Program-made: the position numbers and the translations under genes
IMG/VR virus record: IMGVR_UViG_3300032132_000022
Span: 1 to 36,506 of that record
From: a virus
Direction: 5' to 3' (one strand)
DNA length: 36,506 bases
The notes under the pieces: generated by a model
Seen by the model: the letters and a program-made list of their open reading frames with translations, nothing else
Database searches by the model: none
Told to the model about the DNA's origin: nothing
Part shown: positions 4,685-36,506 of the stretch, in pieces
Layout of the letters: each line of letters begins with the position of its first letter
Position numbering within the stretch: position 1 is the first letter of the stretch

Positions 4685-6345
4685 GTGCGACTGAAGAAAC
4701 ATTGCTGTACGGCCCGAACGGGCACCAACTGCACTTCGAGGCAAAGTCACAAAGCGAGCGCAGTGAAGCGTTTGAGTTCATTGAGCGAATGAACCGTGCT
4801 GCCTTCAAGAGCGCGGAAAGCAACCGACTCAACTTCAACTGGAACACATCCCTCGAAGACATCAATGTGATCCTGGTGCGCGAACTACGCAAGTTGCGTG
4901 CGCGTTCACGCTGGTTGGCCGCAAACAATCCCTACGGATCGAGTGCTGTCAATACGCTCGTTAATTTTTGTGTTGGCACAGGGTTTGATTTGCACATGGA
5001 GGCACGACGCTTCGAGCGTCAGGCAGATGGCACTACGGTCGCCAAACCACGCGATGAGTTCAACGACTTCGTGGAAGACTTGTTTCGCGAGTGGAGCGAA
5101 CAGGTGACGCTCACTAGCAGCGACGGGTCGCCCGACGAGTTCTGGGAGATGCAACCCCTCATGTTTCGCCGCTGGGTCGAGGACGGTGAGGTTTTTATCG
5201 TTCACCAAGTCTCGCGTGCGGTCGATGTCGTCCCATTCGCGATGCAGGTTGTCGATGCCGACTTCGTCGATTACAACCGCACGGAGTATAATGGCAACCC
5301 CGTTATCATGGGCATCGAACTTAACGCGACAACGTGGAAACCCGTCGCCTACTGGATGCACACGACCGATGTACTCGACCCGCGCCGACCTTCTCGCGTA
5401 GAGTCGCGGCGCATTCCTGCCGAGAACGTCATCCACCTGTTCAAAAAGCGGTTCCCGTTCCAGGTGCGCGGCATCCCGTTTGTCACACCAGTCGCCGACA
5501 AACTCTATCAGGTCGAGCAGTACAACGATGCCCAGTTGATCCGTAACAAGATCGCGGCATTCTTCTCGGTCATGCTGGAAGGCATGGGCGACGAGGCTGG
5601 AGACGGGTTCGACGGTGGAGCGGCAGATACCCCTACGACCGCAGAGGGGTTTCCCACGGATGCCAATGGCAATCGAATAACAAACCTCGCCACGGGTGCG
5701 ATCCTCAAGGTGCCTGACGGGTTTAAGGCGCACGTCATCGAAAAGACCACACCTGAGTCTGCATACAAAATGTTTCTCGGATCTAACTTGCAGGCTATTG
5801 GATCGGGCTATGAAGGGGGGATGTCGTATATCGGACTGACCCGTGACACAAGCGACACGACCTTTGCTGGCGGCAGACAGCAGGAGAACCATGACTTTCA
5901 AGGGTATCGACCCCTGATGAAGCACTTCGCGAAGAAGGCACTCTCTGCAATTTTCCGCAACTGGTTCGATGCGGGAGTAATGAGTGGGGCAATAACAGTG
6001 AATGTGGTCGATTACGAGGTGAACCCTCGTCGGTGGCGCAGGCACACATGGATGCCTGCCGGATGGGATCGCGGCATCAACCCGTTGCAACAGGTGAACG
6101 CAAGCGAGAAGTCGATGAAAAGCGGCATCACGACGCTTGACGATGAAGCCTCCGCGCTCGGTTACGACGCGAAGATGCAAATCTCGAAACGCGCAAGAAT
6201 TGAAAAGATGAAACAGGACGCTGGTCTGCCGAACGAACTCGACGGAACCGAAGATGCACTTGCTAAACTTGGTGAGTCAGACGATGACCCAGCGGTGGAG
6301 GCAGAGATGCAACCAGCAACGTCAACACAGGGAGATGACACATGA
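4681..6345 (+). CDS. Portal protein, lambda gpB family
   Basis: 554 residues. It matches the lambda-family portal layout: an N-terminal helical region with a RELRKLRARSRWLAANN segment followed by NPYGSSAVNTLVNFCVGTGF, a conserved opening block of this family. Later parts include a WVEDGEVFI segment, DPRRPSRVESRRIPAENVIHLF and RQQENHDFQGYRPLM. The portal forms the dodecameric ring at one capsid vertex through which DNA is packaged and to which the connector attaches. The C-terminal 40 residues are acidic and probably disordered. ATGA overlaps link it to the joining protein upstream and the protease-capsid gene downstream (6342-6345). Confidence 0.95.
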   Translation: MSATEETLLYGPNGHQLHFEAKSQSERSEAFEFIERMNRAAFKSAESNRLNFNWNTSLEDINVILVRELRKLRARSRWLAANNPYGSSAVNTLVNFCVGTGFDLHMEARRFERQADGTTVAKPRDEFNDFVEDLFREWSEQVTLTSSDGSPDEFWEMQPLMFRRWVEDGEVFIVHQVSRAVDVVPFAMQVVDADFVDYNRTEYNGNPVIMGIELNATTWKPVAYWMHTTDVLDPRRPSRVESRRIPAENVIHLFKKRFPFQVRGIPFVTPVADKLYQVEQYNDAQLIRNKIAAFFSVMLEGMGDEAGDGFDGGAADTPTTAEGFPTDANGNRITNLATGAILKVPDGFKAHVIEKTTPESAYKMFLGSNLQAIGSGYEGGMSYIGLTRDTSDTTFAGGRQQENHDFQGYRPLMKHFAKKALSAIFRNWFDAGVMSGAITVNVVDYEVNPRRWRRHTWMPAGWDRGINPLQQVNASEKSMKSGITTLDDEASALGYDAKMQISKRARIEKMKQDAGLPNELDGTEDALAKLGESDDDPAVEAEMQPATSTQGDDT

Positions 6346-8663
6346 GCGAACACAACCCCTTGCAGACCTCATTCGTGCAGCGTGATGGAACCGGATCTCG
6401 CACGGCACAATCGCACGCGCAGCGTGTAGCCGAGGAGTGGCGCGGACGACTGGTGGAGCAGGATACCCGTGAAGACGGCATCCGCGAGTTCGTCGATCCC
6501 AATCCCGACAGGCTGGACGTTCACATCAACGCCGATGCACGTGCTGTCGAGAACGACGGAGACGACTTGGTGGAGATTTCGATCACCAGCGAATACCCAG
6601 TGATAGACGCTTTCGGCGAGCGTGAAATCATCTCCCATGATCCGCGTGACATGCGACTCAATCGACTGATGGAGGTGGGTGCTATTCTCAAGAACCACGA
6701 CCCGCGCCAGATAGTAGCGGTCCCAGAGCGCGTCTGGCTTGACGAAGAGACGAGAAAGACTAAAGCTCTCATCAGATTTGGGACAACACCCGAAGCGCAA
6801 ACAGCAAAGCATGAAGTTCTTGTCGATAAGACCCTGCGAGGAGTATCCGGTGGATTCCTCACCCGACGCTGGTTGTGGCTCGAAGATGAGTCCATTAAAT
6901 TTAACGACCGTATCTCTGGCCCAGCCTGGATTGGACTCGATACGGACATACTCGAAGCATCGCTAACGCCGATACCTGCCGACCCAAGTGTCGGCGTAAA
7001 CAGAACACAACAAAGACGAGGAAATACAACGATGAAGAAGAAACTACGCTTGCTGCTCGATCACCTTATGGGTGTCCGTCAGTACAATGCAGGCGACATC
7101 ATCGAGGTCGATGAGCGCGAAGTCGCAGCACTGACAAGTGGCGACGCTCCGATCGCGGAAATTGTCGCAGACGAACCAGTGACCCGCACGGAAGTCGAAT
7201 CCGTCCCGCGTGCCGCTGCTCCCGCCCCAGAACTCACTGCACAGACGACCGAAACGCCGGAACAGATCGCGTCGCGACTGATTGTCGCCGAGCGGGTTCG
7301 CTGCAGCGAGATCAACGCATTGGGCGCACGGTTCAATACTGACGTTGCCGATTTTGTTAACAGTGAAGCGACGGTCGATCAGGTGCGTGGTCACTTGCTT
7401 GACGTTGCCGAGTCCCGCTTGCAAAGCGTTCCGACGCATGGTTCCGACCGTGTCGAGTTCGGTTCCGACCAGCGCGACAAGTTCGCTCGTCAAGCGAGCA
7501 CGGCCATGCGCCTTCGCGCAGGGCACAAGGACATCAGCGACGAGGATCGGCGCGAGGCGCAGGGTTCCGTTGGTGGTCTCTCGCTCGTCCGTCTCGCCGA
7601 AGAGTGCCTCAAGATTGCTGGTATCCCGTTCCAGCAGGGCAACCGTGAGCAGATCGTATCGCTCGCGCTCCGTGGTGATGCGGTCAGTTCGTGGGATCTG
7701 GGAACACGCGCCGCTGAGTCAATCACGATCGGTACGAGCGACTTCCCGCTGATCCTCGCGGATACGGCGAATAAGGCTATGCTCATGGGTGCTGATCTGG
7801 CGAACCCGACGTACCAGGAGTGGTGCAAGATCGGTAACGCCAACGACTTCAAGAATCAGAAGCGCATCAAGATGTCCGAAGTGGGCAAATTGGTGGAGAT
7901 TCCTGAGTTCGGCACCTACCCGACGACCAAGATCGCGGAAGAGCAAGAGACCCTTGCCGTCGTGACCTATGGTAACGCATTCAACCTGTCTCGGCAGGCG
8001 ATCGTAAACGACGATCTCGATGCGTTCACCACGATCCCGATGAAACTCGGTCATGCCGCTGGTCGGCTACCGAATGACCTCGCGGTCACGGTCCTGCTCT
8101 CGAACCCGACGATGACGAACGGTAATGCGTTGTTCTCGTCAGGCAACTCCAACATCAGTGACGACGAGAGTGCCTACGCCCTGACATCCATCGAAAAGGC
8201 ACGGGCAGGCATTGCCAACCTCGTCACGATTATGATGCAGCAGACCGCGTACCAGCACGGTGATGTGACGGGTGAGCAGATGAACCTGCGCCTGTCTCCC
8301 GTCGTTGGTCTCTTCCCCTCGACAGGGTGGGAGTGGGTCCGCGCCGTACTGGGCGAAACTGGTTACGGTACGGGTGTTGAAGGGGTTAACCCCTTGCAGA
8401 ACATCGTTAAGCCTCATTTCGAGCCTTCCCTCGAAGACTCGAACATCACGGGCAACTCGACCACGGGTTACTACCTGTTCGCGAGCACACTGGTCGCCCC
8501 AGTCATCGAGGTCGCATTCCTCGGCGGCAACCAGACTCCGTTCATGGAAGAGGTCGAGAACAACGGCACCGCTGCTGACGGTCGCGTATGGAAGGTTCGC
8601 CACGACTGTGGTGCTGCCGCCATCGACTTCCGTGGCGCAGTCAAGGAGGTTGCCGTCTCCTAA
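6342..8663 (+). CDS. Prohead protease-major capsid protein fusion
   Basis: 773 residues. Residues about 50-220 are an HK97-type prohead serine protease: the catalytic His is H119 in LKNHDP, the Ser is S169 in GVSGGF, and E205 lies in LEASLTPIPADP, the conserved end of the domain. Residues from about 231 form an acidic, Ala/Glu-rich helical delta or scaffold-like region. From about 395 there is an HK97-fold capsid protein resembling Mu gpT-type subunits (DTANKAML, DFKNQKRIKMSE, SRQAIVNDDLDAF, NDLAVTVLLSNP). In related phages the protease removes the delta region during maturation. An in-frame ATG at 7032 has its own ribosome binding site and could yield a separate capsid precursor. The start overlaps the portal stop. 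Confidence 0.93.
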   Translation: MSEHNPLQTSFVQRDGTGSRTAQSHAQRVAEEWRGRLVEQDTREDGIREFVDPNPDRLDVHINADARAVENDGDDLVEISITSEYPVIDAFGEREIISHDPRDMRLNRLMEVGAILKNHDPRQIVAVPERVWLDEETRKTKALIRFGTTPEAQTAKHEVLVDKTLRGVSGGFLTRRWLWLEDESIKFNDRISGPAWIGLDTDILEASLTPIPADPSVGVNRTQQRRGNTTMKKKLRLLLDHLMGVRQYNAGDIIEVDEREVAALTSGDAPIAEIVADEPVTRTEVESVPRAAAPAPELTAQTTETPEQIASRLIVAERVRCSEINALGARFNTDVADFVNSEATVDQVRGHLLDVAESRLQSVPTHGSDRVEFGSDQRDKFARQASTAMRLRAGHKDISDEDRREAQGSVGGLSLVRLAEECLKIAGIPFQQGNREQIVSLALRGDAVSSWDLGTRAAESITIGTSDFPLILADTANKAMLMGADLANPTYQEWCKIGNANDFKNQKRIKMSEVGKLVEIPEFGTYPTTKIAEEQETLAVVTYGNAFNLSRQAIVNDDLDAFTTIPMKLGHAAGRLPNDLAVTVLLSNPTMTNGNALFSSGNSNISDDESAYALTSIEKARAGIANLVTIMMQQTAYQHGDVTGEQMNLRLSPVVGLFPSTGWEWVRAVLGETGYGTGVEGVNPLQNIVKPHFEPSLEDSNITGNSTTGYYLFASTLVAPVIEVAFLGGNQTPFMEEVENNGTAADGRVWKVRHDCGAAAIDFRGAVKEVAVS
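7018..7034 (+). promoter_or_regulatory. Internal ribosome binding site and in-frame start within the protease-capsid gene
   Basis: GAGGAAA at 7018-7023 lies 8 bases before an in-frame ATG at 7032-7034 (residue 231 of the fusion), exactly after the protease domain ends. The downstream product would begin MKKKLRLLLDHLMG and contain only the scaffold-like segment and capsid domain (543 residues). The spacing and sequence resemble those of other genes in the rightward block, such as 8759 and 11612. That it is used is an inference. Confidence 0.55.
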
Positions 8664-27059: not shown

Positions 27060-27944
27060 TCATGTTCCATGCTTCTTCGCCATCTCCGCACGGAACGCAA
27101 CGAGATCCGCGACCTGATCAGCGAACTTCTTGCCATGCTGGTCACGCAACTTGGTGTAAAGTCGCGCACGGTCTGACTTTGTGCGTAATGCGCTGACCTG
27201 ATCCACTGCTTCCTCGATAGCACGCTGCCGCTGTTCGTGTGCGCGCCGCTTTCGCACCTGTTCCTCTTTCGCCTTTTTCGTCGCCTCGCTCCGCGCCTTC
27301 TCGTCGATCTCCTCCATATACTGCGCGGGTGGGGGGTACAGTCCGCGCCATTGCTTGTCAACGGCACACCGTAACCACATCGCAGCTTGTTCGGGCTTGA
27401 GGTGCCGCAGCTTTGATACCTGTCGGTCCACGGCATCCGTTGTTAGCACAAATCGTTTGCGGTCACGGTACTCCAGCCACTCGCCGACCGCGTCTCTCAC
27501 GTCCGCATCGTCTGCGAGAGAGTCGGGCAACTGGGACAAGTAGAACTTGAGGGTGATCGCTTTGGCGCGTGGTGCTTTGCGTCCAGTGACAATGTTCGGG
27601 TTACCTCCGCGTGCGCCACCCTCTTTTGCGCTGGCGGCAATCTCCGCATCCCGCACCATGCGAGCGATGTAGATCGAGCCACTCTCCGTGCGATGAATGC
27701 GCTTGGAGGCAATCAGGCGATCCCGTGCGGCCATCCAGGCATCCTCGTCGATGTTCATCATCCTCGCGATCTGTCCATCGGGCACGGCAGTACCGTTTCC
27801 GAGCGTGACGAACCCCTTCGGCTTGCCATCCTCGGCAATGCACATCAGGTCCAGCAGGTGCGAGCGGTCTTCGGGGAGGCAGGCGCGTAGATCGAGATCG
27901 GTCAACCATGCGCGTGTGTCGAGCATGAGCAGTTGTTTTTTCAT
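27060..27944 (-). CDS. Replication organiser/initiator-like protein
   Basis: 294 residues, with GGAGAC upstream. Residues about 5-100 look like the winged-helix N-terminal domain of phage replisome organisers and DnaD/DnaT-like loaders (LDTRAWLTDLDLRACLP, VPDGQIARMMNIDEDAWMAARDRLIASKRI, then a GSIYIARMVRD strand). Residues 100-200 hold a basic segment and short helices. Residues 205-270 are a long, highly charged helix (ARSEATKKAKEEQVRKRRAHEQRQRAIEE). Such proteins bind the origin and recruit helicase. It is the last gene of the leftward block, after the recombination genes, which supports a replication role. Family match is by pattern. Confidence 0.65.
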   Translation of the reverse strand: MKKQLLMLDTRAWLTDLDLRACLPEDRSHLLDLMCIAEDGKPKGFVTLGNGTAVPDGQIARMMNIDEDAWMAARDRLIASKRIHRTESGSIYIARMVRDAEIAASAKEGGARGGNPNIVTGRKAPRAKAITLKFYLSQLPDSLADDADVRDAVGEWLEYRDRKRFVLTTDAVDRQVSKLRHLKPEQAAMWLRCAVDKQWRGLYPPPAQYMEEIDEKARSEATKKAKEEQVRKRRAHEQRQRAIEEAVDQVSALRTKSDRARLYTKLRDQHGKKFADQVADLVAFRAEMAKKHGT

Positions 27945-27994
27945 TTTGGGTGTCTCCGTTGGTGTCTCTGTGTCGGGCTATTAAATATCAGACC

Positions 27995-28411
27995 TCATTG
28001 CAATGCGTTGGGAACGATGGTGCGGCGCACCGTGAAGCGTCCGCGTGTCGGTTCTGCGATGATCCGCAGGATGGACGGGGCAAAGTGCCGCCACAGGCGA
28101 ATCAGTAGCACCTCGCGCCCCGTGATCGGTCGCGGCTTATAGTCTACATAGACGACGCGCCCCTCCTCGACGAACGATGCGTCTAGCCTCCAGGAGATCG
28201 GGGGGTAGTCCTCGATCAGGAGCACTAGCGGTTGATGGATCAAGTCGGAGATGACCTTGCCGCGCTCCAGCATCTCAAGGTGCGCCCAGTACCTCGCCTC
28301 ACCCTGCGAGTCGTGGCAGCGTTGCCCGTCGATGTCGTACACAGGTTTCGCGCCGAACTTGTTCCTGCGCTTCAGCGGCGACCGCTTGATCGGTTTCTTT
28401 CGGGTCGTCAT
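27995..28411 (-). CDS. DUF1064-type phage nuclease (PD-(D/E)XK fold)
   Basis: 138 residues from the ATG at 28411, preceded by AGGAGAGAC; a longer frame to 28468 lacks a better start. The N-terminus is basic (KKPIKRSPLKRRNKFGAK). Then come DSQGEARYWAHLEML (E38, R40), IHQPLVLLIE, LDASFVEEG (D77) and VVYVDYKPRPI (D90, K92), the order seen in DUF1064 proteins, which are predicted endonucleases with a Glu-Asp-(D/E)xK site. Here the last motif reads DYK. It may resolve or trim branched DNA during recombination or packaging. It lies downstream of a good promoter inside the end of the Cas4-like gene. Confidence 0.75.
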   Translation of the reverse strand: MTTRKKPIKRSPLKRRNKFGAKPVYDIDGQRCHDSQGEARYWAHLEMLERGKVISDLIHQPLVLLIEDYPPISWRLDASFVEEGRVVYVDYKPRPITGREVLLIRLWRHFAPSILRIIAEPTRGRFTVRRTIVPNALQ

Positions 28412-28559
28412 CGTCTCTCCTAAAGTAAAGCGCGCACCCCACCGTAGGGTGAGACTAGAGAGCGACACACGATGCCCTCTTGCCCGTGCTTTCGCAGAGG
28501 CGACCCATAGCAGAATGCGCGCATGAAATTCTTGTTATACACAACCCTGTTATCCGCAG
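28412..28559 (-). other. 148-base leader between the two nuclease genes
   Basis: It holds the promoter described separately, a GGAGA ribosome binding site at the left end, and a weak CACCC/GGGTG hairpin near 28432-28450. A 33-codon reading frame (28420-28524) begins almost at the predicted transcription start but has no ribosome binding site; I do not call it a gene. Confidence 0.4.
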
Positions 28560-28563
28560 TCAA
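28534..28563 (-). promoter_or_regulatory. Sigma-70-like promoter ahead of the DUF1064 nuclease gene
   Basis: Read leftward: TTGACT (28563-28558), an 18-base spacer, and TATAAC (28539-28534), each 5 of 6 to consensus. The -35 overlaps the stop codon of the Cas4-like gene. Transcription would begin near 28527, giving a leader of about 115 bases before the ATG at 28411. Confidence 0.55.
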
Positions 28564-29654
28564 GCGTCCTTGTCTTCTTCGCCGTTTTTCACGATCTTGA
28601 CCAGCGTCCGCTCGGTCGTGCGCTTGTACTTCTCCTTGATCTTGGCAGGGATGTCGTAGGTCGCACCGCTGGATCGCTTGACGGTGATCGAATAATCGTC
28701 GAGCATGATCACGCGCTCGTCCCCGTGATCGACCTCATCGCCTGCTTCTTCGAGAACGCTCTTGCAGTGTCCCTTGATCCTCTTGTCTGCTTCCTCCCAC
28801 GTATCGCGAGACTCCTGCGCCTTCTCCCGCATGATGACCCACGCTTCGAGTTCGACATCCCACATGCGGTGCTCGATGAATCCCTTCTCCAGGAGGTCGG
28901 GCACACAACGGTCCTTGTGGTCGCACCTCCCGCAAATCGCCTGCGTGTACTTGATCCTCTCTGGCAGATCACCCTCGATCGACTCCAGTCCCTTCGTCCG
29001 TGACTCACTGGCGTAGATTCGCTTCTGGAGGGCACCCACAAGAGCCGTGACGCGCTTTGCTTTGGAAAGCAATGCCTTGATGTGCCCCTTGTGTCCCTTG
29101 CGCCTGACGACGATTGTGCGGATCTCAAAACTGCTCTTGTCCACCAACAGCAGCAGACCAACGTCGATGTCCTTCAACTCCAGGTAGGTCAAAAGTTGAT
29201 CGGGCCATTTGCGGGTGTGAACCATCGGAGAGTTCTTGATGTCGTCGAGCGTCTTGAGCCGTGCGAAGACAAACGGGTTGCAGGACTTGATCTCGATGGG
29301 GACACGAACGCGGGTGCCGTCAACGTAGTACGAGATGGAGATGTCAATCCTGCCGCCGATCCCATACGGGTTCGAGGGCATCTCGTCCTCTTGCAGCAGC
29401 ACCTCGACATCGGTGTCCTCGTAAACCTCCATCAGGAGTTTAACGATGTTGCGATGATACAGTTCGCCAGCGTGGAAGATCCGTTGCAGGTAAACGCTCG
29501 GTTTCTTGCCGACGAGCAACTGGTCGTAAACGAGCGACCGCTCGCACGGGTGCCCGATGTTGGATGCGTGGACGCTTCGCGCCGCACGTGTCGAACGCTT
29601 CGCGTCGAAGTGCGCGTCACAGGCAGCGGGTATGTCGGGAAGGTTTTCAGTCAT
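28560..29654 (-). CDS. Cas4/RecB-like PD-(D/E)XK nuclease with Fe-S cysteines
   Basis: 364 residues from the ATG at 29654, with GGAGG 9 bases upstream; an ATG two codons earlier (29660) overlaps the preceding stop as ATGA. Motifs in order: SNIGHPCERSLVY (C37), GRIDISI (D104), VPIEIKSC (E121, K123) and a QLLTYLEL helix (Q153), then C241, C244 and C250 in CGRCDHKDRC. This is the Cas4/AddB arrangement, in which one early and three late Cys hold a 4Fe-4S cluster. Such enzymes are ssDNA exonucleases. The gene lies downstream of a putative annealing protein with a small membrane peptide between, forming a likely recombination pair. The C-terminal 110 residues are charged and helical. Confidence 0.82.
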   Translation of the reverse strand: MTENLPDIPAACDAHFDAKRSTRAARSVHASNIGHPCERSLVYDQLLVGKKPSVYLQRIFHAGELYHRNIVKLLMEVYEDTDVEVLLQEDEMPSNPYGIGGRIDISISYYVDGTRVRVPIEIKSCNPFVFARLKTLDDIKNSPMVHTRKWPDQLLTYLELKDIDVGLLLLVDKSSFEIRTIVVRRKGHKGHIKALLSKAKRVTALVGALQKRIYASESRTKGLESIEGDLPERIKYTQAICGRCDHKDRCVPDLLEKGFIEHRMWDVELEAWVIMREKAQESRDTWEEADKRIKGHCKSVLEEAGDEVDHGDERVIMLDDYSITVKRSSGATYDIPAKIKEKYKRTTERTLVKIVKNGEEDKDA

Positions 29655-29656
29655 TG

Positions 29657-29785
29657 TCATGATCCTCCAGCAATGATCGCGAAAGTTATACCTACCGCAC
29701 ATGATACCAACAACGTCAGTACCCATACCGTCACCATCCGGCGCGCCTGATCTTCGCCTTCCTGATCAATGTTTAGCTTCTTCAT
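29657..29785 (-). CDS. 42-residue membrane peptide between recombination genes
   Basis: Starts at the ATG at 29785 with AGGAGA 5 bases before it. A charged start (MKKLNIDQEGEDQARRM) is followed by one membrane span (VTVWVLTLLVSCAVGITFAIIAG) and a short GGS end. Its stop overlaps an ATG of the next gene. Not recognised; a membrane peptide inside a recombination cluster suggests an anchor, a host-inhibitory peptide or a superinfection factor. Confidence 0.6.
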   Translation of the reverse strand: MKKLNIDQEGEDQARRMVTVWVLTLLVSCAVGITFAIIAGGS

Positions 29786-29801
29786 TCTTCTCCTAATAAA
29801 T

Positions 29802-29830
29802 GTCCCACCTTGCACCACAAGGGGTGGGAC
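29802..29830 (-). terminator. Hairpin with T-rich tail after the annealing-protein gene
   Basis: Arms 29802-29809 and 29823-29830 are perfectly complementary (8 pairs), with 3-5 further pairs around a small bulge (CCTTG/CAAGG). On the leftward transcript the stem is followed by ATTTATT. It lies 43 bases after the stop of the 29873-30742 gene and just ahead of the small membrane peptide, so it may be a terminator or attenuator within the operon. Confidence 0.5.
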
Positions 29831-29872
29831 GCAGATCATATACTCATCTTGCCGTGGTCGCATTGCGCCATA

Positions 29873-30742
29873 TTACACAGGCAGTCCCGACGCATCGTCG
29901 AGGATCTTGGTCAACTGCTCGATGATGCGGTCTAGCTGCGGTCCCAACTTCTGCGGCTTGAAGGAACCCCACCCGTCCCAATTCTTATCGGGATTGGCAG
30001 TGACTGCCTTCAGCACGTCTTCGGGACTTGTCATCTCGGCACCGCTCTCAGGTTTCCACCCTGCGTCCATCAACTGTCGGCAGAGATTGCGGCACGCATC
30101 ACGCTTCGCCTGATCATCGGCATCCGTCGCTGCGCTGCCACCACGGGCACCCCGTGCTGCGTCGAAGTTGTGACCTGTGCTCGATGACCCATCGACTCCG
30201 TACTGCTGGAGTTCCGTCGCATCGACATCCTTGCCGAGGCCCAGTCCCGTGAAGACTGCGTTTTTGATTGCCTCGCTCTTGCCCATCTCACAGATGTCGT
30301 GCTCATCGACAGCACTCAATGCCTTCGGCTTTTCCTCCTCGATGCCGAAGAAGGGTTCGCGGGACGTGATCATGCTGGACCCCTCGATCGTCTCGCCCCA
30401 CGGCAGTTGCCACGTGCATACGTGCGTGTACGCATAGTAACCACCCGCATCGTCGCTGCGCTCCTCACGCAGGTACGGCAACTGGTTGGTCCCGAACCGC
30501 TGCCACAGCAGGTTGCCGCCGACGATCCGGTAGCACTTGCGTGCGAAGTTGATCGTGCGTCGCCATTTGTCCCCGAACTTCTTGATGTCGGTCACGGGGT
30601 TGATGCGCTGCTGGATCAGCAACTGTGCGCGCTCCACGACTTTGATGCGGTGTTCCATTGCCTGGACCGCACTCTCCATTTCCATGCCTTGCGGAACCCG
30701 CACAGGCACGACACTCTTTCCGTTCTCGTTCTCGTTCGTCAT
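29873..30742 (-). CDS. Putative single-strand annealing/recombination protein
   Basis: 289 residues, with AAAGGAGAGAGAC upstream. An N-terminal helical part (MESAVQAMEHRIKVVERAQLLI) is followed by a mixed domain (GDKWRRTINFARKCYRIVGG, THVCTWQLPWGETIEG, EMGKSEAIKNAVFTGLGLG). The last motif recalls the conserved helix and GLGL turn of Sak/Rad52- and Erf-like annealing proteins. A linker rich in Gly/Ser (near 185-205) leads to a C-terminal helical tail (CRNLCRQLMDAGWKPE, GPQLDRIIEQLTKIL). Being directly upstream of a Cas4-like nuclease supports a two-component recombination system. I cannot place it in one named family. The start overlaps the previous stop by ATGA. Confidence 0.5.
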   Translation of the reverse strand: MTNENENGKSVVPVRVPQGMEMESAVQAMEHRIKVVERAQLLIQQRINPVTDIKKFGDKWRRTINFARKCYRIVGGNLLWQRFGTNQLPYLREERSDDAGGYYAYTHVCTWQLPWGETIEGSSMITSREPFFGIEEEKPKALSAVDEHDICEMGKSEAIKNAVFTGLGLGKDVDATELQQYGVDGSSSTGHNFDAARGARGGSAATDADDQAKRDACRNLCRQLMDAGWKPESGAEMTSPEDVLKAVTANPDKNWDGWGSFKPQKLGPQLDRIIEQLTKILDDASGLPV

Positions 30743-31122
30743 TGTCTCTCTCCTTTGTTTGTTTCCTGTTCGCGATTGTGTTTCTGGATGTGAACCATCG
30801 AGTAGACCTCGTTGCTTGCCGTGATCATTTTGTCGGCACGGGCACGCAGGTCACGGGCGCACGCTTCGATCTCGCTGATCTCCGCTGCCCACGCTGCGCG
30901 ATACCCTCGCTGCCCGAAGATGATCCTGCCGTTGCTGTACTGGCGCGCCTGACGGATGTCCCGCTCGCTCCAGCCCAACATACGCAACTCCGCACGGGTA
31001 ACCCATTGTCCGCAACCGTTCGTGGTCAGGTCTCCGAGCAGATCCTCGGCGAGCGCACGACCGCGCACGACCTCTGTATCCTTCGCTGCCTTGAGCAATA
31101 ACTCTTGTTGTGTCTCAACCAT
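30739..31122 (-). CDS. Hypothetical helical protein
   Basis: 127 residues from the ATG at 31122, chosen for AAAGGAGAC 4-12 bases upstream. Mostly helical. A VTRAELRMLGWSERDIRQARQYSNGRIIFGQRGYRAAW segment could be a helix-turn-helix with a short wing; the tail is charged (HKHNREQETNKGERQ-type). Not recognised. The stop overlaps the start of the annealing-protein gene. Confidence 0.55.
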   Translation of the reverse strand: MVETQQELLLKAAKDTEVVRGRALAEDLLGDLTTNGCGQWVTRAELRMLGWSERDIRQARQYSNGRIIFGQRGYRAAWAAEISEIEACARDLRARADKMITASNEVYSMVHIQKHNREQETNKGERQ

Positions 31123-31172
31123 TGTCGTCTCCTTTGTTTCGGGCATTTTCTTGCGGGTTACTTGTGGTTGTT

Positions 31173-31904
31173 TTACGGGTGTCGGAGCATATCCCATGCG
31201 AGCGCACAGACTCGCGGGTCTTGACCATTGCCAATGGCCGCAAGTCGGTCCATTTGATGGGCCACCCCATACGCTGTTCGTTCCAGCACGGGTTGATCTT
31301 CCCGCCAACTTGTGCCGCCAATGTCGGGGTATGCCTTCTGTATTCGCCAGGACACGCTACCTCTTTTGAGTTGTGTCGTGTCGGAGTCTGCAAGGGTTCC
31401 GGCAATAAACATGCGCGCTCTGGTGTGATCTGCGCCGAACCAGCGAGATTCAAGCACTCCCCATCGCGCATTATACCCCAACAGTCCAAGATCCTGGAGG
31501 ATGGTGACAAGTCCGCGAGTGCGTAAGAGAGGTACGTTTTCGGTCCACGTAAACGTAGGCCGAACCTCTCCGATAATGCGGCGATTCTCTCGCCAAAGTC
31601 CACTAGAACGTCCGTCCAGTCCGTCCAAGCGTCCAGAGACATTATTGTTTGAACGTGCTGGGCTAATGTCTGTGCATGGGAACCCTCCGCTGACGACATC
31701 GACCTTTCCTCGCCAGGGGTTACCGTCGAAGGTGCAAACGTCGTCCCAGATAGGGAATCTAGGTAGGATTCCGTCAGCCTGCCGTTGCAATAGAACTCTG
31801 CGTGGGTAATCTTCGATCTCAACAGCGGCAACGGTTCGCCACCCGTGCAACAAACTTCCGAGGAGTCCACCTCCTGCTCCTGCAAATAGTGCCAACTCAT
31901 TCAC
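31173..31904 (-). CDS. DNA (cytosine-5) methyltransferase, compact
   Basis: 243 residues. Motifs: LFAGAGGG (I, residues 6-13), VEIED (II), DVVSGGFPCTDIS (IV, catalytic C77), TENVPLL (VI, E122), SRWFGADHTRARMFI (VIII, R162/R164), and AIGNGQDP near 226 (X). All catalytic motifs are present but the target-recognition region is very short, so the protein is well below the 300-400 residues usual for this family. No restriction endonuclease gene is adjacent; it may protect phage DNA from host enzymes. Start at ATG 31904, with a weak AGGGAAG. The upstream promoter at 32171-32179 probably drives it with the 66-residue gene. Confidence 0.88.
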   Translation of the reverse strand: MNELALFAGAGGGLLGSLLHGWRTVAAVEIEDYPRRVLLQRQADGILPRFPIWDDVCTFDGNPWRGKVDVVSGGFPCTDISPARSNNNVSGRLDGLDGRSSGLWRENRRIIGEVRPTFTWTENVPLLRTRGLVTILQDLGLLGYNARWGVLESRWFGADHTRARMFIAGTLADSDTTQLKRGSVSWRIQKAYPDIGGTSWREDQPVLERTAYGVAHQMDRLAAIGNGQDPRVCALAWDMLRHP

Positions 31905-31926
31905 TTCCCTATGCTCTTGGGTAACT

Positions 31927-32127
31927 TCATTGTCTGTTCCTCTTGCGTGTCTCTTCGATTGCGAGTCTCATGCACTGACCGAGTCCGACGAACGGCGCGT
32001 TCTTTTTGAGCGTGCCCTTCTCGCGGAAACTGATCACACCCCCGCACTCCAGGGCGACGATGACGGTCTTGCCGCATACCTGCACGTCCATCTCCCGCTC
32101 GATCGTTCTGGTCATCTTGGTTGCCAT
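31927..32127 (-). CDS. Hypothetical 66-residue protein
   Basis: From the ATG at 32127, with AAGGAGATAC 6-15 bases before it. Small mixed protein: MATKMTRTIEREMDVQV, then GKTVIVALECGGVISFREKG and a helical end (CMRLAIEETRKRN). Two Cys. No family recognised. It is the first gene behind the extended -10 promoter and lies 22 bases ahead of the methyltransferase. Confidence 0.6.
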   Translation of the reverse strand: MATKMTRTIEREMDVQVCGKTVIVALECGGVISFREKGTLKKNAPFVGLGQCMRLAIEETRKRNRQ

Positions 32128-32338
32128 TGTGTATCTCCTTCGTGGTTGGTTTTGTCTCTTGTGAACCACCATTATACCAAACGGGGTTTTGGGAAATCGC
32201 GGATCGGGCCGATATGGGCACGCACCCGACCCGCGTTGCTAACAAACTCGTTCGGAAAAAAATCGCTTGACTCATGTTTTCACTTTTCGCCGCGCAGGGG
32301 CACGGGCACCGTAGCGATACCCGTGCCACCCATCTTCG
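32128..32338 (-). other. 211-base intergenic region with hairpin and promoter
   Basis: From right to left: an 8-pair inverted repeat (32299-32306 with 32320-32327, GGCACGGG/CCCGTGCC, 13-base loop) 12 bases after the stop of the 32339 gene, without a T tract; an AT-rich stretch with seven A (32254-32260 region); and the extended -10 promoter. It separates two transcription units in the leftward block. The hairpin may end the upstream operon or bind a regulator. Confidence 0.5.
32171..32179 (-). promoter_or_regulatory. Extended -10 promoter (TGGTATAAT)
   Basis: On the leftward strand TGG precedes a perfect TATAAT (32176-32171). The TGn extension makes a -35 box less necessary, and none is clear about 17 bases upstream. 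It lies 44 bases before the ATG at 32127, a normal distance for a leader with a strong ribosome binding site. Confidence 0.65.
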
Positions 32339-32575
32339 TTACGGTCTCCACCAGATGTGTCCACGAACGTACATCATGTGGATTGCGGTGCAGATGTCGT
32401 CGCGCCGATCCCTCTGCTCCCGCGCCAGTCTGGATGCACACAGTACGCGCCGCGCACGCTCGACGGGGCTTGGAATTCCACGACGCTTCTCCCGTGGCAT
32501 CTCACTCAGTGGCCATGTCCCCGCAGTGCGTCCGACCGTGCTGATCCCTCGCGTATTATGTTTCCCTAGCGTCAT
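32339..32575 (-). CDS. Hypothetical 78-residue basic protein
   Basis: Starts at ATG 32575 with GAGGAGAC 6-13 bases before it. Arg-rich, with PREKRRGIPSP and a helical SRLAREQRDRRDD segment and an aromatic end (YVRGHIWWRP). No family. The reading frame is supported mainly by the ribosome binding site and by filling the space between its neighbours. Confidence 0.5.
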   Translation of the reverse strand: MTLGKHNTRGISTVGRTAGTWPLSEMPREKRRGIPSPVERARRVLCASRLAREQRDRRDDICTAIHMMYVRGHIWWRP

Positions 32576-32588
32576 CTGCTGTCTCCTC

Positions 32589-32849
32589 TCAGGGGATGAA
32601 CCCCGTGTTTTTGTCTGCCTCGCGAACCTCTTTTCGCAACTGCTTCAACTCCGTAATTACGTCGAGTCGCTTCTCCTCGTTTGCGTTTATGCGTTCGTCC
32701 AACGTGACGGGGATATGTTGCGCTACGACCTCGACCCCACCGATCACATCGTCTGCGTTTTCAATGGCGACCCGAATGCGCTCCAGCAGTGGTCCCGTGA
32801 TTCGAGCGGTGCGAATTATTCCGATACGTGCGGTGATCAGTTTACGCAT
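32589..32849 (-). CDS. Hypothetical 86-residue helical protein
   Basis: From the ATG at 32849, which overlaps the previous gene by 8 bases; GGGGGA lies about 9 bases upstream. A start three codons earlier (32858) is possible. Sequence: MRKLITARIGIIRTARITGPLLERIRVAIENADD, then VTLDERINANEEKRLDVITELKQLRKEVREA, a clear amphipathic or coiled-coil helix. Not recognised. Confidence 0.55.
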   Translation of the reverse strand: MRKLITARIGIIRTARITGPLLERIRVAIENADDVIGGVEVVAQHIPVTLDERINANEEKRLDVITELKQLRKEVREADKNTGFIP

Positions 32850-33105
32850 GGGGATCATTCCCCCACGGCACGGGACTGGAGTGAATCTCGCAGAAATGTC
32901 GCAGACGCTGGTTCTCTTCGCGCAACTTAGTGATCGTGCGACTCTGGTCCTCGACCAGTTTCTCCAGATCCGCGTTGGTCGCCCTCTCGTCCCAAGCGTT
33001 GAATGCCTCCTGCAACCCTTCCTCTCCTCGCGAGGCATCGTCGAGAACCGCTAACAGCGCAGCAGCGTTTTGCGGCGTCAGACTATCTATGATTATCGTT
33101 ATCAT
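32842..33105 (-). CDS. Small coiled-coil protein with a peptide shared with the DUF3150-like protein
   Basis: 87 residues, with AAAGGAGAGACGG upstream. The start is beta-like (MITIIIDSLTP); residues about 45-70 form a coiled coil (NADLEKLVEDQSRTITKLREENQRL). The C-terminus contains EIHSSPVP, encoded by a 25-base segment (32866-32890) that occurs with one change in the gene at 34861-35748 in the same reading frame. No known family. Confidence 0.6.
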   Translation of the reverse strand: MITIIIDSLTPQNAAALLAVLDDASRGEEGLQEAFNAWDERATNADLEKLVEDQSRTITKLREENQRLRHFCEIHSSPVPWGNDPHA

Positions 33106-33130
33106 CTCTTTCCGTCTCTCCTTTCGGGTC

Positions 33131-33343
33131 TTATCCGTTGTCGTTATGCGCGCCGTACTTGTTCAGCGCGTCGATCATTCCGACCTTCGTGCAAGGGCAG
33201 TCGAACTTGGTCACGTTCGCGGACCTTTCTGGAGTCTTCTCCCAGTCTCGCGCCAACACCCGCGCTTCCTTCCGCGTCGCCGCATAACGGAACCCCTGGT
33301 GTCTGGCGACTACGTCGTCATAACTGACAATCCATATTTCCAT
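33131..33343 (-). CDS. Hypothetical 70-residue protein
   Basis: From the ATG at 33343, with AAGGAGAGACGG upstream almost identical to that of the next gene. Starts MEIWIVSYDD, then YAATRKEARVLARDWEKTPE, typical of small phage proteins of mixed alpha/beta fold. Two Cys (CPC near 50) occur near the end. No function assigned. A longer frame to 33463 would overlap the VWA gene and is not supported. Confidence 0.6.
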   Translation of the reverse strand: MEIWIVSYDDVVARHQGFRYAATRKEARVLARDWEKTPERSANVTKFDCPCTKVGMIDALNKYGAHNDNG

Positions 33344-33396
33344 CTTCCGTCTCTCCTTCCGGCGCGCCACGGTCCCCCGCAGCGCGCCATTTGTAG

Positions 33397-34857
33397 TTAG
33401 TCCACCGTGATCACGGAGTGGTCTCCGTGCGGCGGGATCTGTGTATCGTTCGTGATGAGCCACAGCACCGGAACCTTAGTTGCTTCGGGCCAGGACATAT
33501 ACCCATCCGTGAGGCACACGATGAACTGCGGCTTCAGTTCCATCGCACGGTCGAAGGCGGGGTGCATGTGCGTGCCACCCCTGCCCTGGAGGTTCCAGTC
33601 CTTGATGTCGAACCTGTCGCGACCCTTGAACTCACGCTCATCGGTCACGCGGGTATCGCATTGCAGGACGGTCAGAACACTGCTGCGGAACGACTTGAGG
33701 ACGCTCTTCAGTTCGCCCAGAACCGCATTGCATTCACCCGCCGACATGCTGCCGCTGGTATCCACAATGAACACTCCACGGTCCAACGAGTACGATCCAC
33801 GACTCGGAAGCAGCACCCCGTCACGACGTGACGAGTGCAACCTGTTGGGTCGCGTGTACGACACACCCATCTTCACGAACTTCCGTGCGAACCGACGCAG
33901 CTTTTGCTGCCACGGGATCTGCGCGGGGGTCAGCATCGTATCGACCAACTCTTCCATCCATCCCTCCAGCTTGCCGCACGCTTTCGCCTGCATGACCGCA
34001 GAAGCGATCATCGTTTCCCATTGACGCTCCAGCATCCGATCACTCGCCTCGTCGCCAGTGGATTCGGGATGCGGCGCAACGTCACCCATCGACGACGACG
34101 GTGCGGGTTTGGAATTATCCACGGCATCGGGTTCCCCTTCGGAGTCGCCACCCTCACTGCTGCTGGTGCCGTCCTCCTGCTGTTCACCATCGGACCCTTC
34201 GCCACTGCCGTCACCATCTCCGTCTGAAGACGGATCAGAATCGCTCTCATCGTCGCTCTCGCTGCTCGAATCTCCAGAGTCACCCGCTGGGGAGTCTTCG
34301 TCATTCGAGTCCTCTGAGGGCGACTGGGTCGCGGTCTCGTCGCCTTCCCCGTCCTGGTCACCGTCCTGGTCACCGTCCTGGTCCTCCTCGTCCTGACGCT
34401 CCTTGAGCAGGTGCTGGTATGCCTCCGCAGCGAGGTCACGCGGCAGGGACAACTTATCAGCGGTCGTCGCGTCGGCGGGAAACCCCTTCTTGTCGAGGAG
34501 CAGTTCGTTGACCGCGCAGTCCGTGGCACTCTGCCAGTTGTCCCACATTCGTTGTGCTCCCTGCTCTCCCGCTTCGAGCATAGCGATAGCGCGCAGCGGT
34601 TCCGCACGCAGGTGATGCCCCAGCAGGATGTGGCACGCTTCGTGATCGAGCACACGCTGCAATCCGTCGTCAGTCCTCGTCTCGACGAACTTGGGATTGT
34701 AGCGGCACTCCACTCCATTGATGCACATCGTGCCGACGCTCTCGTCCTCAACGATCGCGTGCCGACACATTATTGCCGCGAACACGATGTCATCGCGCAT
34801 CTGCTTTATGAGCGCACGCGAGACTCGCTCACGCGCAGTATGTGTGTGTCTTGCCAT
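33397..34857 (-). CDS. VWA-domain protein with N-terminal metallopeptidase-like domain (DUF2201 type)
   Basis: 486 residues. The N-terminal domain (about 1-150) has HEACH (72-76, an HExxH zinc motif) followed by LLGHH, as in the putative metallopeptidase part of DUF2201 proteins. Residues 155-275 are an extreme acidic Asp/Glu/Ser/Gly linker, including DQDG repeats from a 12-base repeat at 34349-34384. The C-terminal VWA domain (about 360-486) has a complete MIDAS: DTSGS (D366, S368, S370), GGTH (T429) and LTDG (D451). This pairs with MoxR-type AAA+ ATPases in bacteria and some viruses, where the ATPase and VWA protein remodel or load partners. Upstream lie a DUF3150-like gene and the ATPase. 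The stop of the upstream gene lies in its leader (GGAGACTGACAA). Confidence 0.88.
   Translation of the reverse strand: MARHTHTARERVSRALIKQMRDDIVFAAIMCRHAIVEDESVGTMCINGVECRYNPKFVETRTDDGLQRVLDHEACHILLGHHLRAEPLRAIAMLEAGEQGAQRMWDNWQSATDCAVNELLLDKKGFPADATTADKLSLPRDLAAEAYQHLLKERQDEEDQDGDQDGDQDGEGDETATQSPSEDSNDEDSPAGDSGDSSSESDDESDSDPSSDGDGDGSGEGSDGEQQEDGTSSSEGGDSEGEPDAVDNSKPAPSSSMGDVAPHPESTGDEASDRMLERQWETMIASAVMQAKACGKLEGWMEELVDTMLTPAQIPWQQKLRRFARKFVKMGVSYTRPNRLHSSRRDGVLLPSRGSYSLDRGVFIVDTSGSMSAGECNAVLGELKSVLKSFRSSVLTVLQCDTRVTDEREFKGRDRFDIKDWNLQGRGGTHMHPAFDRAMELKPQFIVCLTDGYMSWPEATKVPVLWLITNDTQIPPHGDHSVITVD
34349..34384. repeat. 12-base tandem repeat in the acidic linker of the VWA gene
   Basis: Three copies of a CCGTCCTGGTCA unit; the last differs at the end. 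It encodes the repeated DQDG and probably changes length by slippage without breaking the frame. Confidence 0.8.
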
Positions 34858-34860
34858 TTG

Positions 34861-35748
34861 TCAGTCTCCGAATATCGCGCACAGATCACCTTCCAGGTCC
34901 GAGCACACTTTCTTCACTTTGCGACGCTCCGCAGCGTCGTCACGAAGCGCAATGGGATCGAACGCGGTCAGCTTCGACCGAGTCTTTTCCAGCATGGCCG
35001 CGAGTCGCTTGTCGTCGGTGATGTTGCAATGTGCGAGCGAGTCGCACACGCTCACGATGGACTTCATCATGCCACCGTAGCGCACACCCTTCTGGTCATC
35101 CTTCGACACGCGCCTGCACACATCTGCGATCAGATCCAACAACTGCTTGTGTATGTCAGACAGTGCTGCGTTCAGCGAGTCTGCGATCTGCTTTCTCACG
35201 CTCTTCTCGACCAGGGACTGCGCGCCAGCACTCAATCCCTCCACGCGCTGATCGGTCAGCGGCACGGGGCTGGAGTGAATCTCGATGCAGAACCTGTCGC
35301 GGATCTCGTTCGCAGTCGGGAACGCACGCTCCTGGTACAACCCGTTCAGCCTCTTCTTCGCATCCGCTTTCATCGCAGGCAGACTGACGCAGATGTCTTC
35401 GTGTAGTTCCTGTAGTTCACGCTTCGCCTCGCTGATGACCTCGAACAGACCGAGGTACTCGTCAGCACGCACGACGCGCAGTCCACCGTCGCCCCACGGT
35501 AGCGTTTTGGAATTCCACAACGACCTGAGTGCGTGTGCCCGTGCGCGCAGCTTCGACAGCACCTCTTTCGGCAGGTGTGCAATCGTCACGCGGGTCGTGC
35601 CCTTCTCCGCGCCATGCCGCTCCTCGGTCTCCTTCGAGACGTTCGGTGCGGCGACGCTGCCGTCCCACTGCGAAAAGGTTAGCTGCACGCAGACCAGACT
35701 GCGTAGCACCTCGTCCTCGGTCAATTCGGGTTTCGTTTTCTTTGCCAT
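34861..35748 (-). CDS. Helical DUF3150-like protein of the ATPase-VWA module
   Basis: 295 residues, with AAGGAGACAT upstream. After a short charged start (KKTKPELTEDEVL) an early beta segment (LVCVQLTFSQWDGSVA) is followed by long helices (LSKLRARAHALRSLWNSKTLPWGDGG, FEVISEAKRELQELHEDICVSLP, then AKKRLNGLY and a FPTANEIRDRF segment). A C-terminal coiled half follows. This resembles DUF3150 proteins, often encoded between a MoxR-type ATPase and a VWA/CobT-like protein. Role unknown; possibly the target or adaptor of the ATPase. It contains the EIHSSPVP segment shared with the 32842 gene. Confidence 0.6.
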   Translation of the reverse strand: MAKKTKPELTEDEVLRSLVCVQLTFSQWDGSVAAPNVSKETEERHGAEKGTTRVTIAHLPKEVLSKLRARAHALRSLWNSKTLPWGDGGLRVVRADEYLGLFEVISEAKRELQELHEDICVSLPAMKADAKKRLNGLYQERAFPTANEIRDRFCIEIHSSPVPLTDQRVEGLSAGAQSLVEKSVRKQIADSLNAALSDIHKQLLDLIADVCRRVSKDDQKGVRYGGMMKSIVSVCDSLAHCNITDDKRLAAMLEKTRSKLTAFDPIALRDDAAERRKVKKVCSDLEGDLCAIFGD

Positions 35749-35775
35749 TTTATGTCTCCTTGTTTACGTCTCGGT

Positions 35776-35949
35776 TTATACGTCAGCGATCAGCAGTCGT
35801 TCGGCCTGGATACGGTCTAAGCGCATGGCGCGAAACACCACCTCGCTATGCCCGTCATCCTGTGCCTGCTTCACGGACTCCCGCAATTCAGCGAAAGCTG
35901 CCTTGTCCATGTCATGCACGGCACCTGTTTCTGGGTTTGTTATCTTCAT
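35776..35949 (-). CDS. 57-residue hypothetical protein with duplicated start region
   Basis: Starts at ATG 35949, with AGGGGA upstream. The peptide begins MKITNPETGAVHDMDK, then a charged helical body (KAAFAELRESVKQAQDDGH, FRAMRLDRIQAERLL) and ends IADV. No family known. Its ribosome binding site and first nine codons are repeated in tandem directly upstream (see the repeat). It lies between the AAA+ ATPase gene and the DUF3150-like gene and is probably part of that module. Confidence 0.7.
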   Translation of the reverse strand: MKITNPETGAVHDMDKAAFAELRESVKQAQDDGHSEVVFRAMRLDRIQAERLLIADV

Positions 35950-36003
35950 CGTCGTATCCCCTCACCTGTTTCTGGGTTTGTTATCTTCATCGTCGTATCC
36001 CCT
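35922..36003 (-). repeat. Perfect 41-base tandem duplication spanning ribosome binding site and start codon
   Basis: Units 35922-35962 and 35963-36003 are identical. Each contains, leftward, AGGGGATACGACG followed by ATG and nine codons. The right copy begins at the ATPase stop codon. It opens a second reading frame (ATG at 35990) of 14 codons (MKITNPETGEGIRR) that stops at 35948-35946, overlapping the ATG of the 57-residue gene as ATGA. Confidence 0.95.
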
Positions 36004-36506
36004 CAGAGCATTATGCCTTTCTGTTCCGGCGCGTTCATCCATGCGAGAACGTGCGGCAATCCGAACACCTCGGCAGAATCCTGCTTGGCGAACGTAAGCC
36101 CGAACACGGTGATCTCCGTGTTGAGCCGCAACAGGTACGTCATCAGCGCACCCTGCTGCTCCCGCACCTTGCACCCGTCCACGATCTGCATGGCGAGACC
36201 ACACTGGATCGACGTTTCGGCAGGCACTGGCGTACCTTCGGGATCGGCGACGATCTCCTCGATCGACGGTGCCTTCTCCTGCAACTCGATCGTGGCGAAC
36301 AGCTTGACCGCTGCCGCCTTCCCGATGCACCCAGCGATTGCTGGCAGCAGGATGTCATCCGTCTGGAACTTCACAGACCGACTCGCCTGCAAGATCCTGT
36401 TCGCCATTGCGAGCGTGCGATCATTGCACACGCTCATTTCCTCGTAGTCCTCATGCCGCTGGATCAGGTCCGACGACAAACGACGGAACGTCCGCACCGC
36501 AGTATC
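36003..36506 (-). CDS. MoxR-type AAA+ ATPase, C-terminal part (cut by the window edge)
   Basis: The frame is open to the right edge, so this is the last 166 residues or so; the nucleotide-binding core lies outside. Residues include a lid-like helical set (SNDRTLAMANRILQASRSVKF-type), ILLPAIAGCIGKAAAVKLFATI, and APSIEEIVADPEGTPVP, a block I associate with the C-terminal region of MoxR/CbbQ-like ATPases encoded beside DUF2201/VWA proteins. A GTG at 36497 could start a shorter product but lacks a ribosome binding site. The next genes leftward (57-residue protein, DUF3150-like, VWA) support the call. Walker motifs cannot be checked here. Confidence 0.7.
   Translation of the reverse strand, partial: DTAVRTFRRLSSDLIQRHEDYEEMSVCNDRTLAMANRILQASRSVKFQTDDILLPAIAGCIGKAAAVKLFATIELQEKAPSIEEIVADPEGTPVPAETSIQCGLAMQIVDGCKVREQQGALMTYLLRLNTEITVFGLTFAKQDSAEVFGLPHVLAWMNAPEQKGIML

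Follow-up and report, generated by a model that had tools for sequence, protein, structure and literature searches.

What does a tailed phage do with a MoxR-type ATPase, a helical DUF3150-like protein and a protein that joins a metallopeptidase-like domain to a VWA domain? The question is raised by four leftward open reading frames (ORFs) at positions 33397-36506 of the viral record IMGVR_UViG_3300032132_000022, separated by short gaps of 53, 27 and 3 nt. The stretch analysed, called the window here, is the entire IMG/VR contig of 36,506 nucleotides (36.5 kb), which is linear and probably a fragment, and the ATPase gene is therefore cut at the contig end. A preliminary description made from the sequence alone gave the four products as the C-terminal part of an ATPase and proteins of 57, 295 and 486 residues, and these assignments are accurate. 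The ATPase and the metallopeptidase-VWA protein make up a module that is conserved and keeps its motifs, and the DUF3150 protein belongs to it. Because the three genes recur together in dozens of uncultured phages and on bacterial plasmids, they probably encode a protein-remodelling machine for the takeover or DNA-copying phase.

Recurrence in viruses and on plasmids

At least 549 relatives turned up in a scan of viral contigs with an alignment of the VWA protein. Of these, the 80 best, combined with loci from prior searches, gave 76 non-redundant loci, and 60 of them are informative for gene content, with over 4.5 kb of sequence ahead of the VWA gene. The ATPase is present in all 60 and DUF3150 in 33, most commonly in the order ATPase-DUF3150-VWA (26 loci). 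A 41-sequence profile recovered no distant DUF3150 protein hidden in the loci that appear to lack one. In one locus (L093, 1122-3146) the ATPase and DUF3150 are naturally fused in a single protein of 674 residues. On a tree of ATPase plus VWA, the presence of DUF3150 clusters, requiring 12 changes versus 23.7 in shuffles. Pairwise divergences are correlated, with Mantel r of 0.85 between ATPase and VWA and of 0.68 and 0.76 in the comparisons with DUF3150; this correlation supports co-inheritance and not, by itself, interaction.

Relatives of the VWA protein occur in 537 phage records. Among cultured phages DUF3150 is rare by tblastn, the only matches being two Planktothrix phages and Synechococcus phage MinM2. 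The MinM2 order is ATPase, a small ORF, DUF3150, three small ORFs and VWA. The trio is also carried outside viruses. It is contiguous on Cupriavidus plasmid pRK1-1, Burkholderia plasmid pBVIE02 and a Rhodovastum plasmid, present but spread out on a Simplicispira plasmid, and found in contigs from Burkholderiales, Acidobacteria, Paraflavitalea (Bacteroidota) and Kordiimonas. Burkholderiales plasmid operons such as those of pRK1-1 and pBVIE02 share the window's ATPase-DUF3150-VWA order, with the genes there contiguous, but differ in lying on conjugative plasmids, in their shorter linker and in having no 57-residue gene. In the tree, plasmid copies are nested among phage copies. Co-occurrence elsewhere, which the preliminary description had named as a check, is borne out: ATPase, VWA and often DUF3150 are found together, while the 57-residue gene is not part of the set.

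The pairing of ATPase and metallopeptidase-vWA protein in phages is not new. Iyer et al. 2021 (PMC7824862) described a MoxR AAA+ ATPase with such a partner in jumbo phages. As in the window, the ATPase adjoins a vWA protein whose N-terminal domain is a metallopeptidase, but no DUF3150 partner is mentioned there, and the window genome is medium-sized and siphovirus-type. The window pair matches PF13203, PF09967, phrog_1314 and phrog_1297. Coliphage N4 gp24/gp25, the Schitoviridae core pair (phrog_1297/phrog_1314), shows both families in the same order as the window and belongs to the core genes of N4-like phages (PMC4193335, PMC7650795). The copy of this pair in Presley carries DUF2201_N and DUF2201, as in the window, but its locus has a different intervening gene and no DUF3150. 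The DUF3150 partnership, the ATPase-DUF3150 fusion and the link to plasmids appear to be new within the literature searched, which nowhere mentions DUF3150 and takes in only a minority of subscription journals and no bioRxiv preprints.

Components and their motifs

Of the ATPase, no more than the C-terminal part lies in the window. L003 (IMGVR_UViG_3300035199_000242), a near-identical contig, runs past the window edge, with identity of 98% in DUF3150 and 95% in the VWA protein, and encodes the complete ATPase of 363 residues (L003 3222-4313). The Walker motifs, which the preliminary description had sought beyond the edge, are present there as GGPATAKT (Walker A, residue 37) and MIFLDE (Walker B, residue 110), together with the sensor residues. 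An alanine before the Walker A lysine is common in MoxR proteins. K43, N153 and R170 are invariant in the ATPase alignment, which shows the conserved sensor asparagine and arginines. Against solved structures, the best matches of the ATPase profile are the AAA domains of Midasin (1e-29), and CbbQ/NorQ match too. Between window and L003, all three genes show purifying selection, with ratios of nonsynonymous to synonymous polymorphism (pN/pS) of 0.03 for the ATPase part, 0.16 for DUF3150 and 0.23 for VWA.

The 486-residue protein joins an HExxH domain to a VWA domain with a complete MIDAS through an acidic linker of more than 100 residues, an architecture borne out by Pfam matches, motifs and an AlphaFold2 model with a predicted local distance difference test (pLDDT) score of 77. 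The family profile of the zincin domain matches M48 peptidase 3c37 (7e-5) and MJ1213 (2e-3) in the PDB. Conservation over the 76 non-redundant viral loci differs between the two metal sites. The MIDAS residues D366, S368, S370, T429 and D451 are invariant (76/76), whereas H72, E73 and H76 of the HExxH motif are kept in 71, 70 and 73 loci. The motif has been lost in L004, L020, L023 and L032, of which L020 stands closest to the window in the tree. The VWA function is therefore universal and proteolysis is optional, if it occurs at all, and the protease activity suggested in the preliminary description is putative. Judged by conservation, D113 or E145 is a candidate third metal ligand. The linker stretch compared among relatives is unusually long in the window, at 117 residues against a range of 15-147 and a median of 52 over all loci. 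Foldseek matches the VWA domain to other VWA domains, including the MDN1/Rea1 MIDAS, and the domain ends 7 residues from the protein C-terminus.

The label "HNH endonuclease" (phrog_1314) is attached to proteins of the N4 gp25 type, at L010 4542-5747, L014 5461-6633 and in further phage records (H4, H8, H14 and H24). Since the two labelled proteins scanned against Pfam carry DUF2201_N and DUF2201 and no HNH domain, the label looks like a propagated mislabel, and we flag it for phage annotation.

The 295-residue protein is related to DUF3150 without being a formal member of PF11348. It has no match to that family in Pfam, and PHROGs gave chance-level matches only. The link is indirect: a homologous plasmid protein matches PF11348 weakly (1e-4 to 2e-5; 21.8-22.1 bits, below the 24.9 cut-off), a fold search of BFVD found phage DUF3150 protein A0A6J7WV52 (E=5e-14, template modelling score 0.77), and tblastn found the DUF3150 protein of MinM2 (4e-5). 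The "DUF3150-like" designation in the preliminary description is thus right by this route. An AlphaFold2 model from 41 sequences (pLDDT 90) consists of long helices and a small strand element; its fold is matched by nothing in the PDB at E<0.001, and a PDB sequence search gave only chance-level matches. A weak fold match was seen in BFVD to S5YZA3 of Mycobacterium phage Dylan, a 275-residue cluster O protein (E=3e-3, probability 1.00); cluster O mycobacteriophages carry an AAA ATPase too.

Genomic setting and local repeats

The source is a tailed phage, with terminase, portal, capsid-fused head protease, decoration protein and tape measure genes all rightward. The fusion of major capsid protein and head protease lies at 6342-8663 (phrog_4523, 1.9e-107). 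The four-gene set opens the leftward block, followed by small genes and by the annotated genes listed in Table 1. Scans for promoters and terminators found no signal above chance.

Table 1. Features of the leftward gene block, in window coordinates.
Feature	Position	Strand	Evidence or remarks
MoxR/AAA_5-type ATPase, C-terminal 167 residues	36003..36506	-	phrog_1297 "ATPase", E=2.8e-16
Perfect 41-bp tandem duplication	35922..36003	.	spans ATPase stop, ribosome-binding site and 57-residue gene start; single copy in L003
57-residue ORF	35776..35949	-	no Pfam or PHROG match; DNA identical in window and L003
DUF3150-like third component, 295 residues, mostly helical	34861..35748	-	homologues near ATPase and VWA; BFVD match
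Metallopeptidase-VWA protein, 486 residues	33397..34857	-	PF13203 DUF2201_N, E=5e-31; PF09967 DUF2201, E=4e-22; phrog_1314, 2e-73
Zincin (M48/minigluzincin-like) domain, residues about 10-162	34372..34830	-	PF13203 and PDB profile matches
HEACH (HExxH) motif, residues 72-76	34630..34644	-	conserved across viral loci
Acidic disordered linker, residues about 163-269	34051..34371	-	length varies among relatives; pLDDT mostly <50 over residues 178-246
VWA domain, complete MIDAS	33421..33774	-	DTSGS 33748-33762 (residues 366-370), T429, D451
Rest of leftward gene block	27060..33463	-	three annotated genes within
C5 DNA methyltransferase	31173-31904	-	PF00145, 3e-22
Cas4-like exonuclease	28560-29726	-	phrog_1990, 2e-19
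Possible replication initiator	27060-27944	-	initiator families weak, about 2e-3

The 57-residue gene had been put forward as a new component. A phmmer search over 14,108 ORFs of 100 loci found a relative in L003 alone and, because it is without relatives beyond this near-identical contig, we reject it as a core part of the module. The tandem duplication at its start is accompanied by a spacing of 53 nt from the ATPase gene in the window versus 12 nt in L003. A second, near-identical repeat of 25 bp occurs at 32866-32890 and 35260-35284, in the DUF3150 gene and a downstream small gene, the C-terminus of the latter being unlike the L003 version; local gene conversion is a possible origin of the pair.

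Function of the trio

We propose, with the chances for and against about even, that the trio is an ATP-driven three-component protein-remodelling machine of phages and plasmids, similar to NorQD and Midasin, acting in the early-to-middle (replicative or takeover) phase and not in particle assembly. The genes are observed, as are their motifs, recurrence, fusion, selection and neighbours; complex formation, mechanism and the timing in the window phage we infer as follows. The MoxR/AAA_5-type ATPase would form a hexameric ring, on which the VWA/MIDAS domain of the 486-residue protein would dock, or which it would plug, as NorD does with NorQ. The flexible acidic linker would tether the zincin domain, and DUF3150 would be a helical third subunit working with the ATPase. 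The VWA protein would be pulled or twisted as ATP is hydrolysed, and a bound target complex would thereby be dismantled or activated, with the zincin perhaps clipping the target in lineages that keep HExxH. It is similarly an even call whether tailed phages and conjugative plasmids share a distinct class of MoxR-VWA machines that has DUF3150, with a fold unlike solved structures, as its dedicated third subunit and has as its target the replication or takeover complex of the element itself.

Two known systems serve as guides. In NorQ-NorD (PMC9976466, PMC13036017), the AAA ring is plugged by the VWA protein, with a linker that is twisted, a binding mode proposed to be general for MoxR/VWA pairs. 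As in the window, an AAA ring is paired with a VWA protein that has an N-terminal part and a linker, but the target is a respiratory enzyme (nitric oxide reductase), and the abstracts mention neither a zincin domain nor DUF3150. Midasin (Rea1/MDN1), the closest solved relative of the ATPase profile, has a MIDAS domain that matches the window's, but is a single giant chain, found in eukaryotes, whose task is to strip off ribosome assembly factors.

Iyer et al. (PMC7824862) proposed a role in virion assembly for the ATPase and metallopeptidase-vWA pair of jumbo phages, and the preliminary description named virion maturation among the possible roles; the archaeal virus ATV offers an analogy. The ATPase and zincin-VWA protein would then process and remodel structural proteins. 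A MoxR-like ATPase did co-purify with DC4 virions, as taken up below, and some structural genes lie near gp24/gp25 homologues in roseophage RPP1. However, the trio occurs on conjugative plasmids, which make no virions; downstream of it in relatives the commonest family matches are to DNA polymerases and exonucleases, with single matches to a helicase, a ligase and a ribonucleotide reductase; gp24/gp25 of N4 belong to the middle transcripts, and no homologue of theirs is listed among the virion proteins of roseophages RPP1 and RLP1 (PMC4193335). Plasmid carriage, replication-gene neighbours, N4 middle timing and the separate, capsid-fused head protease of the window phage argue against a virion-only role, and we regard an assembly or maturation machine as unlikely.

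It seems doubtful, to a similar degree, that the trio is a counter-defence or host-takeover device that takes apart or cuts a complex of the host, for instance one for restriction, immunity or polymerisation, to the advantage of incoming phages and plasmids. Phages and conjugative plasmids, which share the trio, do face the same host defences; the leftward block contains a DNA methyltransferase, and the sister contig L003 has a GP88-family gene upstream of the ATPase (467-1084; PF17338, 8e-25). Unlike most accessory anti-defence genes, the pair nevertheless belongs to the conserved core of N4-like phages (PMC4193335, PMC7650795).

Very improbable is a role in defence or superinfection exclusion as a phage and plasmid branch of the MoxR-vWA ternary conflict systems of Kaur et al. 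2020 (PMC7159879), with DUF3150 as third component: the logic of MoxR, vWA and a third partner is shared, but the third position there is taken by VMAP, iSTAND and others and the vWA proteins carry C-terminal effectors, whereas the extra domain here is an N-terminal zincin, and the pair is kept as core genes in N4-like phages. PADLOC gave no match for any component (no search used the VMAP or iSTAND profiles themselves), and we reject membership of a catalogued defence system.

Several points also weigh against the proposed remodelling machine. Relatives were sampled by similarity to the window VWA protein, which biases the survey, and 27 of the 60 informative loci are without a recognisable DUF3150. 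Shared ancestry alone can produce correlated divergence. Upstream neighbour families in relatives, with matches pooled over loci, include primases and also some terminases. Virion preparations of the Staphylococcus jumbo phage DC4 are reported to contain a MoxR-like ATPase, for which the authors ask for confirmation, and those of Corndog gave few peptides of an AAA ATPase; both proteins are at most candidate homologues of the window ATPase.

The ATPase and zincin-VWA pair is a core feature of N4-like phages for which we found no demonstrated function in the literature searched. That DUF3150 travels with the pair in phages and plasmids speaks against a role confined to the virion, and the trio offers a defined target of three proteins for purification and mutation.

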